Part shown: positions 40,540-45,995 of the stretch, in pieces
How the letters are laid out: the number at the start of each line of letters is the position of its first letter
Numbering within the stretch: the first letter of the stretch is position 1
Assembly (NCBI GenBank): GCA_021805025.1
Contig: JAJZGF010000003.1
Location: 26,948-90,947 of the forward strand
Origin: Acidobacteriota bacterium
GTDB lineage: Bacteria; Acidobacteriota; Terriglobia; Terriglobales; Acidobacteriaceae
Direction: 5' to 3'
DNA length: 64,000 bases
The notes under the pieces: generated by a model
What the model saw: the letters and a program-made list of their open reading frames with translations, nothing else
Told to the model about the DNA's origin: nothing
The model's database searches: none
Made by a program: the position numbers and the translations under genes

Positions 40540-41127
40540 ATGCAGCCATCTGTGGTCCACCCCGGAGCGCAAAACCTGCGCACGTGCTTCCTCGATCGGG
40601 ACGGTGTTCTGAACCGCAAAATGCCCGAAGGCCGCTACGTCACTTCGTGGAGCGAATTCGAGATTCTCCCTGGCGTCATCCAGTCGATTGCCCGCTTAAA
40701 CCGTGCCGGAATCCGTGTGATCGTCGTGTCCAACCAGCGCGGAATCGCCAAGGGGCTCTACACATCTGCCGATGTAGATGCGATCCACGCGAGCTTTCAG
40801 GAGCAACTAAAGGCGCAGGGAGCGCAGATCGACCATTTCTACTTTTGCCCTCATGACAAGCAATCCTGTGACTGTCGCAAGCCACTGCCGGGCATGTTCG
40901 ACCAGGCCCGTCGCGACTTTCCCGAAATTGATCCGGCGCACAGCACCATGATCGGCGATTCCCTCTCAGACATTGAATTCGGGCGGAGGCTGGGCATGAG
41001 GACAGTTTTCGTTGAAGGCGACCGGGAACACCTGAAGGCCGGTGCGCCGGATGCTGCCCGGCTTGCTGACTTCCGCGTAGTTTCGCTTCCCGCAGCCGTC
41101 GATGCCCTTCTTGATTCCCGTCAATAA
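40540..41127 (+). CDS. gmhB: D-glycero-beta-D-manno-heptose 1,7-bisphosphate 7-phosphatase (HAD-IIIA)
   Basis: [44 protein letters not shown]. Confidence 0.85.
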
Positions 41128-43367
41128 GCGTGCAGTTCCTGGATCGCCTTCAGGATCGTCGCCGGCTGCGGCAGAATCACATCTTCAAGCACCGGCTGAT
41201 ACGCCACAAAGGTATCCATCGAACCCACTCTCTTCACCGGCGCATCCAGTTGGTCAAACAGTTCATCGGCAATGCGCGCGGCAATCTCGGCTCCATAGCC
41301 CCAGCTCAGCATGTCCTCATGGGCCACAATCACCCGGCTTGTCTTGCGCACCGAGTTGGCAATTGCCTCCCAGTCGTAGGGGTTCAGCGTGCGCAGATCA
41401 AGAATCTCCACATCAATTCCGCTCTCGCGTTGTGCTCTCTCCGCTGCCTGCAGAGCGCGCGGAACCACTGCGCCATAGGTCACAAGCGTCATGTGCTGCC
41501 CTGGTCGCACAATCCTCGCCTTTCCGAACGGAATCGCAAAATCCGGGCCGGGATACGCCGCACGGCCATACGTCTCGCGATAGAGGCGCTTGTGCTCCAG
41601 GAACAGCACGGGATCATCGCAGCGAATCGCCGTCCGCAGCAGCCCGTTGGCATCCAGCGCATTGGAAGGAAACACGACCCTCAAGCCGGGGATATGCGTA
41701 AACATGCTCTCGCCCGATTGCGAGTGATAGATCGCTCCGCCCGTCAAATAACCGCCAATCGGCACCCGTATCACCGCCGGCGCAGCCCAGGCTCCATTTG
41801 ACCGCCAGCGCATCAAGGCTAGCTCATTGCGAATCTGGTGCACGGCAGGCCAGATGTAGTCGAAAAACTGAATCTCCACGACGGGCTTCATGCCGCGCAC
41901 GGCATACCCCACGGCCCGGCCCACAATGTTCGCCTCCGCAAGCTGCGAATTAAAGACGCGCTCAGAACCGAACTTGGTCTGCAGGCCGGCGGTGAGTTTG
42001 AACACGCCGCCTTTCCCTTTCACCTCAGACAGCGCCGCTTCCCGGCTCGCATCCGCCACGTCCTCGCCGTACACCACAATGCGCGGATCGTGTCGCATTT
42101 CGTCCTGCAGGCATGCATTGATCAGGTCCGCCATCGTCCGCTGCGCAGCGCTCTTTCCGTTGGCTGCCTGCGGCTGCTCGGCGGCAAAGGCCGCTCGCGT
42201 CGGGTCCAGATCCTCTGAATACACGTGCCGCATGATACTGGCAGTCTCCGGCAGGGGTGCCAGCAGGGCCTGCTCCGCGGCCTCCGCGGCCTCGTGATCC
42301 ACCGCCTGCTCCAGAGCGGTAATCTCTTCGGCGGTCAGGATGCCTTCCCGCAGCAGCCGCATCTGCATCTTCGTCAGCGGATCCCTCATGGCATCCGATT
42401 CGCGCTCTGTCGCAGAGCGATAAAGCTTGTCGTCGTCTGATAGCGAGTGCGAGTACGGACGGATGCAGTGCCCATGCACAAACGCGGGGCCCAAGCCCGC
42501 CCGGCAATGTGCTGCCGCCGCCAGAAACGCGCGCAGACACGCCTCAGGATCCGTCCCGTCTACCTCGGCAAAAAAGAAGTTCGGAAAGTTAGCAACCAGC
42601 CGTGAAATATTCCCGCCCGGCGTATTCACTTCGACCGGAACACTGATCGCATAGCCGTTGTCTTCCACGCAGAAGATCACGGGCAGCTTATTGTTCGAGG
42701 CCGCGCTCAGCGCCTCCCAGAACTCGCCCTGCGACGTAGATCCCTCGCCGATCGTGGTCAGCACCACCTCATCGCTGTGGAACTGTACGTCATGAAATGC
42801 CCGATAATCCCCATCCACCTTTGCCGCCGCCTCAGGATGCCGGCTGAAGTACCGGCCGGCCTCTGCGCAACCCACAGCATGAAGAACCTGCGTCGCCGTT
42901 GAAGACGAAGTGCTGACAATGTGCAGTTCCGGACTGCTCCAGTGCGTCGGCATCTGCCTTCCACCGCTCGCCGGGTCCGTAGCCGCGCCAACTGCCTGCA
43001 GAAACATCTGTGCCGGAGTCACGCCCAGCGTCAGGCAAAGTGCGCGATCCCGATAGTAGGGGAAAAACCAGTCGTAGCCCGGCTTGAGCGCCAGGGCCGC
43101 TGCCACCTGCAGTGCCTCATGGCCGGCACCGGAGATCTGAAAGAAGATCTTCTGCTGCCGCTTGAGCATGATCTCGCGATCATCCACACGGCGCGAAAGA
43201 TACATCAGTCTGTAGACTTCCACTAGTTGTTCAGGAGCCAGTCCGGCAGCCGTTAACTGCCCGCGCGCACTGGAAACCGCAGATCCCATTGATGTCTCTC
43301 CCAAGTGCCGGTTCTCCGGCTGAAACATCCCTGATTGTAGCAACCCCTCCCGCAAAACCGCCCGCAT
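41121..43367 (-). CDS. Fused alpha+beta 2-oxoacid dehydrogenase E1 component (branched-chain/pyruvate type)
   Basis: E1-alpha half ([38 protein letters not shown]) followed by E1-beta half ([53 protein letters not shown]) in one 748-aa ORF. Confidence 0.93.
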
Positions 43368-43382
43368 CCTGACGCATCGCCG

Positions 43383-43904
43383 CTAACGCACCCGCGGCGT
43401 GAACGGTATCTGGATATCGGGTCCACCTGTAATCGCGTAGCTCATCTTATCCTTCACGCTGCGGGCCAGCTTCTCGATCTCGGCCACCTTGCGCAATTGA
43501 GCCGCTGTGAGCGAATCAGGGGGATCCCCACCAACCTCTCCGTTCAGCTCTTTGGCAAGCCTCAGGAGCCGGGCCGTATCGGTAACCAGCGCCCGCTGGC
43601 GTTCCTCGTTGAGCGCGCGCAATTGCTTTGCCGTGAGTTCTGCGGTCGGCATCGAAGTATTGTCAATTGGATTCCGCTGCGGCGCAATCCATACGCCCGA
43701 AGCGCTCGTTTGCCCGGCAGAAGCCGAAATGCTTGCGGCCGAGAAGGCGGCCATCACCGCAAAACTCCACCCCAGCCTCCTCCCACGCCGATTTCCGGGC
43801 GTCGAAATCAGAGAATGCCCGCTGGTCGATGACCCGTGTCCCCGTTCCCGCACGTGCCTGGATCCTGCAATGTCGCGACCCATCACTATGACCCTAGCCT
43901 CCAC
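43383..43904 (-). CDS. Small secreted or membrane-anchored helical protein, copy 1 of 3 in a tandem paralogous array
   Basis: N-terminal hydrophobic segment (WSFAVMAAFSAASISASA), C-terminal RALVTDTARLLRLAKELNGEV...QLRKVAEIEKLARSVKDKM. Confidence 0.7.
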   Translation of the reverse strand: MEARVIVMGRDIAGSRHVRERGHGSSTSGHSLISTPGNRRGRRLGWSFAVMAAFSAASISASAGQTSASGVWIAPQRNPIDNTSMPTAELTAKQLRALNEERQRALVTDTARLLRLAKELNGEVGGDPPDSLTAAQLRKVAEIEKLARSVKDKMSYAITGGPDIQIPFTPRVR

Positions 43905-44385
43905 CCACGGTGAGCTTCATCTTTTCCTGCACATCATGGGCCAGAATCTCAATCATCTCCGCCTCGCGCATCACCTCCACGGGCAATGGACTCTTGCCGA
44001 TCTTGTCCATCCTGGCCTTCAGATCTTTTGTCAGAATAAGAAGCTTGAGGCTTTCGACGTCAATCTGGCGTTTGCGCTCCGCATTGGCCGCGTCAAAATT
44101 CTGCCTCCGCAACTGATTCTCTTGCATGATCATCTGGTCGTTCGCGTTGGGGGGACGATTGGCCTCAGGCAAAATGATGGTCGCGGGCCTCGGTGGAACA
44201 CTGATGGACTGCGCGCCGAGCAGCATCGCCGACGAAATCCCGAGGATTGCCACCCGCCTCGCGCCGCGCAAGTGTGTTGCAGGATTCAAAATCCTTCCGC
44301 CGTCTCTCGCGTTTTCTTCTCTCCGGTTGCTCGGCATCATCCCTCCTCTCGCCCTGCCGTAGGCTTTTCGCCATCGGCCCGGCAA
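43894..44385 (-). CDS. Small secreted or membrane-anchored helical protein, copy 2 of 3
   Basis: Hydrophobic segment (VAILGISSAMLLGA), ERKRQIDVESLKLLILTKDLKARMDK...VMREAEMIEILAHDVQEKM. Confidence 0.7.
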   Translation of the reverse strand: MPGRWRKAYGRARGGMMPSNRREENARDGGRILNPATHLRGARRVAILGISSAMLLGAQSISVPPRPATIILPEANRPPNANDQMIMQENQLRRQNFDAANAERKRQIDVESLKLLILTKDLKARMDKIGKSPLPVEVMREAEMIEILAHDVQEKMKLTVGGG

Positions 44386-44410
44386 TCGCCTCCCTGACGC
44401 ATGCAGGTCC

Positions 44411-44875
44411 CTAGCTGGCGCCGGATGTCTGCTTGATTGTTTCCCTCACCGTGTGTGCCAGCTTCTCAATTTCATCCGCCTTGCGAATCACCGTCAGCGA
44501 TAGGGTGTCTTTGCTGGTCTTGTCCACTTCCGCCTTCAGAGCAATCGCCAAGGCAAGCAATCTGGCACTGTCGTCTGCCAGTTGCTGCTTTCGGGCTGCC
44601 TCCGCCGCCTCGGCCTTTTCCTTGCGAGAGGCCTTCTGGGGCGTCGCTCCCTGGCCTCCAGCGTTCGCGGGTGGATGGATGGCAGTTCCCTGCGACGGCG
44701 GGCCGTTGCCGGCTTGCACCTGCTTCTGGCCCTCTTGTGCCGTTCCGGTCCACACCGCGGCGGCGACCAGCAGAATCAGTCCGAACGTCCACTTTCCCCC
44801 GCGCCGATTCAACAGGCACTCAGCGATTGCGGCACTTGCAGACCAGTTTCTCCTCGGATTCAGCTGCATACCCAC
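44411..44875 (-). CDS. Small secreted or membrane-anchored helical protein, copy 3 of 3
   Basis: Hydrophobic segment (TFGLILLVAAAVWTG), ARKQQLADDSARLLALAIALKAEVDK...VIRKADEIEKLAHTVRETI. Confidence 0.7.
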   Translation of the reverse strand: MGMQLNPRRNWSASAAIAECLLNRRGGKWTFGLILLVAAAVWTGTAQEGQKQVQAGNGPPSQGTAIHPPANAGGQGATPQKASRKEKAEAAEAARKQQLADDSARLLALAIALKAEVDKTSKDTLSLTVIRKADEIEKLAHTVRETIKQTSGAS

Positions 44876-44993
44876 CTCCCGGCGCTTTGCAGTTCCTTGG
44901 CTTCCGCCAGGCTCGCCGCGGTGGCTCCGCCTCCGGCAAACTTGCTACCACGGCATTCCTGCGCACAGTCTAGTCTAGAAACAGGAGTTTGGG

Positions 44994-45995
44994 ATGCATC
45001 CTTTTTTGCTGGCAATCCGGACCGGCTGGTTCGCCCAGGGCCACTTCATGGGCAAAGTGCTCGACGAGTGGATCGACGACACGCAGGAGTTTCTCCACGT
45101 CAAGCTGCCCCACCTCATCATGGTGGCGATTATCGCCTTTATACTCAATCGCCTGCTGCGTCTCGCCACGGCCCGCATGGTCTACATCGCCGAGCAGCAC
45201 GCCGCCGGTCCCGGCCGAGTGGGCCAGGTCAAGACCCTCGCCGGCGTCATCCGCACCACCGGCCTGGCCATCATCGCCGCCATCGCCGGCATGCAGTTTC
45301 TTGCCGCTGTGGGCGTGGACATGGCGCCCCTGCTCGCCTCAGCCGGGGTGGCCGGCGTAGCCATCGGCCTGGCCGCACAGAACATCGTTCGCGACATGCT
45401 CAACGGCATCCTGATCCTCATTGAGGATCAATTCAACGTGGGAGATACTGTCCGCATCGCCGGAGTCGCAGGCGTCGTCGAAGCCATGACCCTGCGCAAA
45501 ACCACCGTACGCGACGCCGACGGCACCCTCTATGTCATTCCCAACTCCCAGATCACCACCGTCGCGAACCAGAGCATCGACTACTCCGTTGCCACGGTCA
45601 ACGTCAGCGTCGATTACTCCGCCGACCCCGACACCGTCCTCGCGCTCCTCCAGCAGATCGCTACGGACATTCGCACCAGCGAGACCTTCAGCGATGACTT
45701 TGTCGCGGACCCCCAAATCCTCGGCGTAGACGCCATCAAGGGCTCAGAGATGATCTTCCCAGTCGTCTTCAAAACGCGCGCTACCCGCCAATACGCCCCT
45801 GTCCGCGAATTCCGCCGCCGTGTGCGTCTTGCCCTGGAAGAGAAACATTTACTCCCCGGCAATCCGTACCGCGTCTTCAACCGCGCTGTAGATGCCGCCA
45901 CCGGATTGTCTCAGAAACCGTCAGTCGAAGCCCCCGCCGCGCATGATCCCACGGCAATCAAGGCTCCGGAAGGCAACCCATTCGCCGGAGAATAA
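44994..45995 (+). CDS. Small-conductance mechanosensitive channel, MscS family
   Basis: GVAGVAIGLAAQNIVRDMLNGILILIEDQFNVGDTVRIAGVAGVVEAMTLRKTTVRDADGTLYVIPNSQI. Confidence 0.95.
   Translation: MHPFLLAIRTGWFAQGHFMGKVLDEWIDDTQEFLHVKLPHLIMVAIIAFILNRLLRLATARMVYIAEQHAAGPGRVGQVKTLAGVIRTTGLAIIAAIAGMQFLAAVGVDMAPLLASAGVAGVAIGLAAQNIVRDMLNGILILIEDQFNVGDTVRIAGVAGVVEAMTLRKTTVRDADGTLYVIPNSQITTVANQSIDYSVATVNVSVDYSADPDTVLALLQQIATDIRTSETFSDDFVADPQILGVDAIKGSEMIFPVVFKTRATRQYAPVREFRRRVRLALEEKHLLPGNPYRVFNRAVDAATGLSQKPSVEAPAAHDPTAIKAPEGNPFAGE

Follow-up and report, generated by a model that had tools for sequence, protein, structure and literature searches.

CnrX, ZraP, CpxP and Spy (PF13801 Metal_resist and PF07813 LTXXQ) are small exported periplasmic helical hairpins and, by Foldseek though not significantly, the closest solved folds to the proteins described here. 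They form a four-helix unit with two LTxxQ motifs, whereas each protein of the present family has one predicted hairpin, with LTxxQ in the C-type copies only, and the family shows neither a significant sequence or profile relation to them nor conserved metal ligands. The Skp/OmpH chaperones are likewise small exported helical proteins, with Skp-like chains ranking low among the Foldseek hits, but the present family has no OmpH match among the Pfam matches listed, lacks the trimerisation beta-barrel and has much shorter helices. The third comparison is with MscS-type channel loci: mscS is the conserved divergent neighbour of the genes in two taxonomic families, but by sequence the family proteins are no part of the channel, losses occur independently, and other neighbours are found elsewhere.

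The window is the whole stretch of DNA that was analysed, 64,000 nucleotides long. Within it, the three small minus-strand ORFs of the original prediction were confirmed in place; gene A adjoins mscS, B is central and C is distal. The features are as follows.

43383..43883, minus strand: gene C, distal paralogue, about 166 aa (ORF, homology to A and B; start uncertain)
43431..43628, minus strand: C-terminal conserved module of C (HMM match, AlphaFold)
43894..44337, minus strand: gene B, middle paralogue, 147 aa, LPEANRPPNANDQM linker retained (ORF, SD AGGAGG)
43903..44103, minus strand: C-terminal conserved module of B (HMM match)
44411..44869, minus strand: gene A, 152 aa, predicted signal peptide, low-complexity linker and C-terminal hairpin (ORF, SD GGGAGG 5' of the ATG)
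44423..44623, minus strand: C-terminal conserved module of A, a predicted two-helix hairpin (HMM match, AlphaFold)
44960..44981, plus strand: conserved element TGCGCACAGTCTAGTCTAGAAA 5' of the mscS ribosome-binding site, outside the array (near-invariance among relatives)
44994..45995, plus strand: mscS, 333 aa, divergent neighbour (Pfam MS_channel_2nd, E 3.4e-20)

Better starts than those of the first-called ORFs are ATG 44869 for A and ATG 44337 for B, each with the Shine-Dalgarno sequence listed above, and gene C probably starts at ATG 43883, 10 nt past the B stop, rather than at the GTG 43904 first proposed. The gap between A and B is 73 nt, B and C are tightly packed, and 124 bp separate A from mscS, ATG to ATG. 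About 40 loci have an orthologue of A in the corresponding place, and the genome itself carries exactly three family copies. Downstream of the array lies a gene for a 748-aa E1 dehydrogenase with fused E1_dh and transketolase domains (window 41121-43367).

Homology, constraint and distribution of the C-terminal module

The C-terminal modules of A, B and C, about 65 aa each, are homologous. BLASTP gave E 4e-19 for A-B (41% over 98 aa), 8e-11 for A-C and 6e-9 for B-C, and profiles built independently from the orthologue groups matched at E 1.1e-17 (A-B), 3.7e-22 (A-C) and 3.6e-15 (B-C), against a comparison level of E 0.02-0.56 from column-shuffled controls set against an unrelated helical family. 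The originally predicted homology of the three paralogues is borne out by both comparisons, and the alignment is significant in the HMM-HMM test. In comparison with the near relative L003 (Nei-Gojobori), dN/dS over the full genes was 0.29 for A, 0.23 for B and 0.31 for C; the cores gave 0-0.19, that of A having zero amino-acid changes at a dS of 0.14. It follows that A, B and C are real genes of which the C-module is the constrained part; the modules evolve under purifying selection. The earlier view that the duplications are old is supported. Against the L003 orthologues, dS was 0.67 for B, 0.21 for A and C and 0.09 for mscS, and the higher value of B suggests that this gene was exchanged through recombination.

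The linkers had been described as unrelated, which is correct for C only. The LPEANRLPDANDQM linker is common to A and B of several relatives, and LPEANRLPDANDQMxMxxQ is found in 18 of the 105 family rows, in both A-type and B-type genes; in the window, B retains the LPEANRLPDANDQMxM linker and the A copy has lost it.

No curated family in Pfam or NCBIfam covers the A, B and C proteins, which gave chance-level matches only, as did the aligned members when scanned and the profile searches of the PDB. The original statement that no named family is recognisable therefore stands, and the profile search placed the module in no characterised family of these three collections. Literature searches on the family found nothing, and tblastn of protein A against a plasmid collection gave zero matches. 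Profile A1, built from 47 modules, detected the family in 204 of the 250 class genomes and in 85 of 94 genera. In a phylum-wide sample of 297, every clear match fell within the class, and the three matches outside it were partial and marginal (E 3e-4 to 6e-4 per genome). We are confident that this is a class-specific exported hairpin family of Terriglobia, the class being assigned through named relatives (Terriglobus, Granulicella, Terracidiphilus, Acidobacteriaceae). Its presence in more than 80% of the sampled genomes of a dominant soil class to which it is nearly restricted, together with its absence from Pfam and NCBIfam, marks an annotation gap; the family can be searched for with the profile alignment and is usable as a lineage marker. 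The constrained hairpin and the repeated duplication suggest that a function in the envelope is widespread among these bacteria, which are hard to grow.

Long open frames in some members had raised domain fusion as a candidate, which was rejected; the long frames inspected keep the module C-terminal, and the extra length lies upstream of the signal-peptide-like segment. At one locus (L025:5519-5772) an A-type module is spread across two reading frames, possibly a frameshifted pseudogene or an assembly error.

Predicted export signals and fold

The family proteins begin with charged residues, after which come a hydrophobic stretch and an AxA-like site with Gln/Ala behind it; these N-termini look like Sec signal peptides, so export is predicted. 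Signal peptides were assigned by visual inspection and with simple rules; the AxA-like site was present in 91 of 103 proteins and, with start codons picked partly for the hydrophobic stretch, this site alone counts as semi-independent evidence. In the core alignment there is no conserved Cys, and most cores are slightly basic, with a median net charge of +3. The conserved L/I/V/A columns are spaced in a heptad-like, coiled-coil manner (L22, L25, L29 and V33; I52, L55, A56, V59 and M63 in core numbering), forming a continuous a/d hydrophobic stripe on the predicted C-terminal helical hairpin of 65 residues, and E53 and A56 are near-invariant.

For the mature protein A, AlphaFold gave a disordered linker followed by helices at 34-73 and 81-106, with a core pLDDT of about 75-91 and a pTM of only 0.47; for mature C, a disordered linker was followed by helices at 25-62 and 71-92. 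The modules of A and C probably adopt a two-helix hairpin fold in these models. The description of an envelope-associated helical family in the original prediction is supported.

Neighbourhood of mscS and history of the array

The sampled class includes the organism's own taxonomic family, Acidobacteriaceae (f1), and a second family (f6) in which the same neighbourhood recurs. Among genomes of the class sample that carry the family, divergent adjacency to mscS is seen in 45 of 54 from f1 and in 24 of 26 from f6; the other neighbours differ, with E1 dehydrogenase, DUF255 and hppA in f1 and DUF4760 and others in f6. The mscS neighbourhood is evolutionarily stable, and its ancestry in both f1 and f6 is well supported. 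In loci from the remaining families, mscS was beside a family gene in 0 of 24, and the recurring neighbours are hppA (f4, f11), homoserine dehydrogenase (f5), FHA and DinB genes (f7) and D-Ala-D-Ala ligase (f9). Because hppA lies beside the gene in f4, f11 and several f1 genera (L155, L157, L158, L160, L161, L167), the hppA-adjacent neighbourhood is probably old.

Of 43 f1 loci beside mscS in named genomes, one copy was found in 5, two in 22, three in 11 and four in 5. In the core tree, which has 65 columns and is poorly resolved, the single-copy genes of other families group with those f1 genes that are not duplicated, and copies A, B and C fall in f1-only groups, one for A and another for C with B. 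Extra f1 copies in four loci (L135, L136, L143, L144) lie between multihaem cytochrome and TPR genes, with an outer-membrane receptor nearby in three of the four; these neighbours suggest a separate secreted-protein cluster.

Within the 124 bp between the starts of A and mscS, the strongly conserved part is TGCGCACAGTCTAGTCTAGAAA, which abuts the mscS Shine-Dalgarno sequence and has no second exact copy in the genome. About 20 relatives carry it almost unchanged, and it grades to AGTATAGATAGA-like forms in others, while the remaining intergenic DNA diverges; this gradation suggests a -10 region, and the element is a probable candidate for the mscS core promoter or a regulator site. TGCGCACAGTCTAGTCTAGAAA is retained in L163, which is without the array. 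The element thus belongs to mscS, tracks this gene alone and persists without the family, which does not support a shared promoter. Neither a sigma-70-like site nor a conserved promoter for the array was found in the A-mscS intergenic region. The shared promoter region of about 120 bp that had been proposed is consequently not borne out, and a shared bidirectional promoter was rejected.

Candidate roles of the exported proteins

Descent from the LTXXQ/Metal_resist proteins (CpxP, Spy, CnrX, ZraP) would make the family a divergent member that acts in the periplasm as a sensor or chaperone responding to metal or stress, which is quite improbable. In Foldseek against the PDB, CnrX came first for model A with a probability of 0.91-0.95 and ZraP was also listed, but the E value of 0.47 is not significant; model C retrieved generic hairpins, and hairpins resemble many folds. 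In group C, helix 2 opens with LTxxQ, and hhalign against local LTXXQ members, the comparison set being LTXXQ/Metal_resist members of the same class, aligned 15 columns at E 5e-4 (prob 32). The motif occurs once and in group C only, A having DTLSLxV and B PLPxxV at this place, and the other groups gave E 0.03-0.58 against 0.02-0.56 for column-shuffled profiles, so LTXXQ membership was rejected by hhalign save for the 15-column match. Neither PF07813 nor PF13801 was listed for the window proteins or ranked among the 25 families that 90 members matched best. No His is conserved in the core (56 of 155 at the best candidate column), and conserved metal-binding His/Glu/Met of the CnrX/ZraP type were not found there. 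The family may nevertheless work like the periplasmic hairpin proteins CnrX and ZraP, outside the LTXXQ/Metal_resist families in these comparisons. A structural tether or spacer of the envelope, in which an Lpp-like coiled coil joins membrane to wall via the linker, is also unlikely. The long helix, charged surface, variable low-complexity linker and multiple paralogues would suit such a role, but a lipobox-like string occurs in only 5 of the 103 proteins, inconsistently, against the prevailing AxA-like site, and the variable tails carry neither a conserved C-terminal Lys/Arg attachment residue nor an OmpA-like domain.

The divergent adjacency in f1 and f6, kept despite the differing other neighbours, favours a periplasmic accessory or modulator of MscS whose hairpins, bound to the channel or anchoring it to the wall, would tune its gating; however, the absence of this adjacency in loci of other families, the extra f1 copies in outer-membrane receptor, TPR and cytochrome clusters, and losses in either direction make this role rather unlikely. 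In f1, the family occurs without an orthologous mscS in eight genomes, and mscS occurs without the family in two. In G009, DUF255 comes after two family genes and mscS is missing; G143, G047, G054, G119, G236 and G245 keep the family without an orthologous mscS; and in G224, which keeps the family, the sole MscS homologue is distant and on another contig. Conversely, G183 and G151 have kept mscS and lost the family, and in G163 mscS is present with its adjacency unresolved. Co-occurrence with mscS is thus not obligate, and the 2x2 table for f1 (46, 8, 2, 2) is not significant (Fisher p = 0.13). As the family and mscS are lost independently, an obligate MscS partnership is unlikely, and the osmotic role originally drawn from the linkage is not supported, given these losses and the other neighbours outside f1 and f6. 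An optional or regulatory link is possible, and the linkage, which persists where other gene order does not, is strong enough for a functional tie to be a real possibility. We consider it unlikely that a lineage-specific periplasmic module evolved beside MscS and modulates it in Acidobacteriaceae and the second family, with three specialised paralogues that hetero-oligomerise. If true, an MscS modulator of this kind would amount to an auxiliary protein for an MscS channel, located in the periplasm and forming a family of its own. Genomes with a natural loss on either side of the pair are suited to testing the partnership.

The reading that we tentatively prefer, at slightly less than an even chance, combines Terriglobia-specific, Sec-exported, self-associating hairpins that form a tandem array in Acidobacteriaceae with a role in envelope homeostasis as chaperone or scaffold. 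This grading is a compromise, the structural and evolutionary parts being much firmer than the functional part, and a chaperone-like role taken alone is doubtful. The proteins would be small and periplasmic, with a predicted signal peptide at the N-terminus followed by a disordered linker rich in Pro, Ala and Gln and by a predicted C-terminal alpha-helical hairpin of 65 residues. Two hairpins would pack as an antiparallel four-helix bundle, with A, B and C forming homo- or hetero-oligomers, and the product would act as a soluble envelope homeostasis factor, a small chaperone or scaffold that resembles CpxP, Spy and ZraP in its working and is not one of them. The array would have arisen by tandem duplication within Acidobacteriaceae from an ancestral gene of which most other families of the class have a single copy, and the adjacency to mscS would reflect an old, stable gene order, possibly a regulatory convenience, and not a partnership.

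Two loci show unusual arrangements. On the chromosome of Terriglobus roseus (NC_018014.1; L043 and L044), the array, mscS and flanking genes occur twice, at a distance of about 460 kb, and seem to belong to a duplicated segment. In L149 (G018), mscS on the plus strand is flanked on both sides by family genes on the minus strand.
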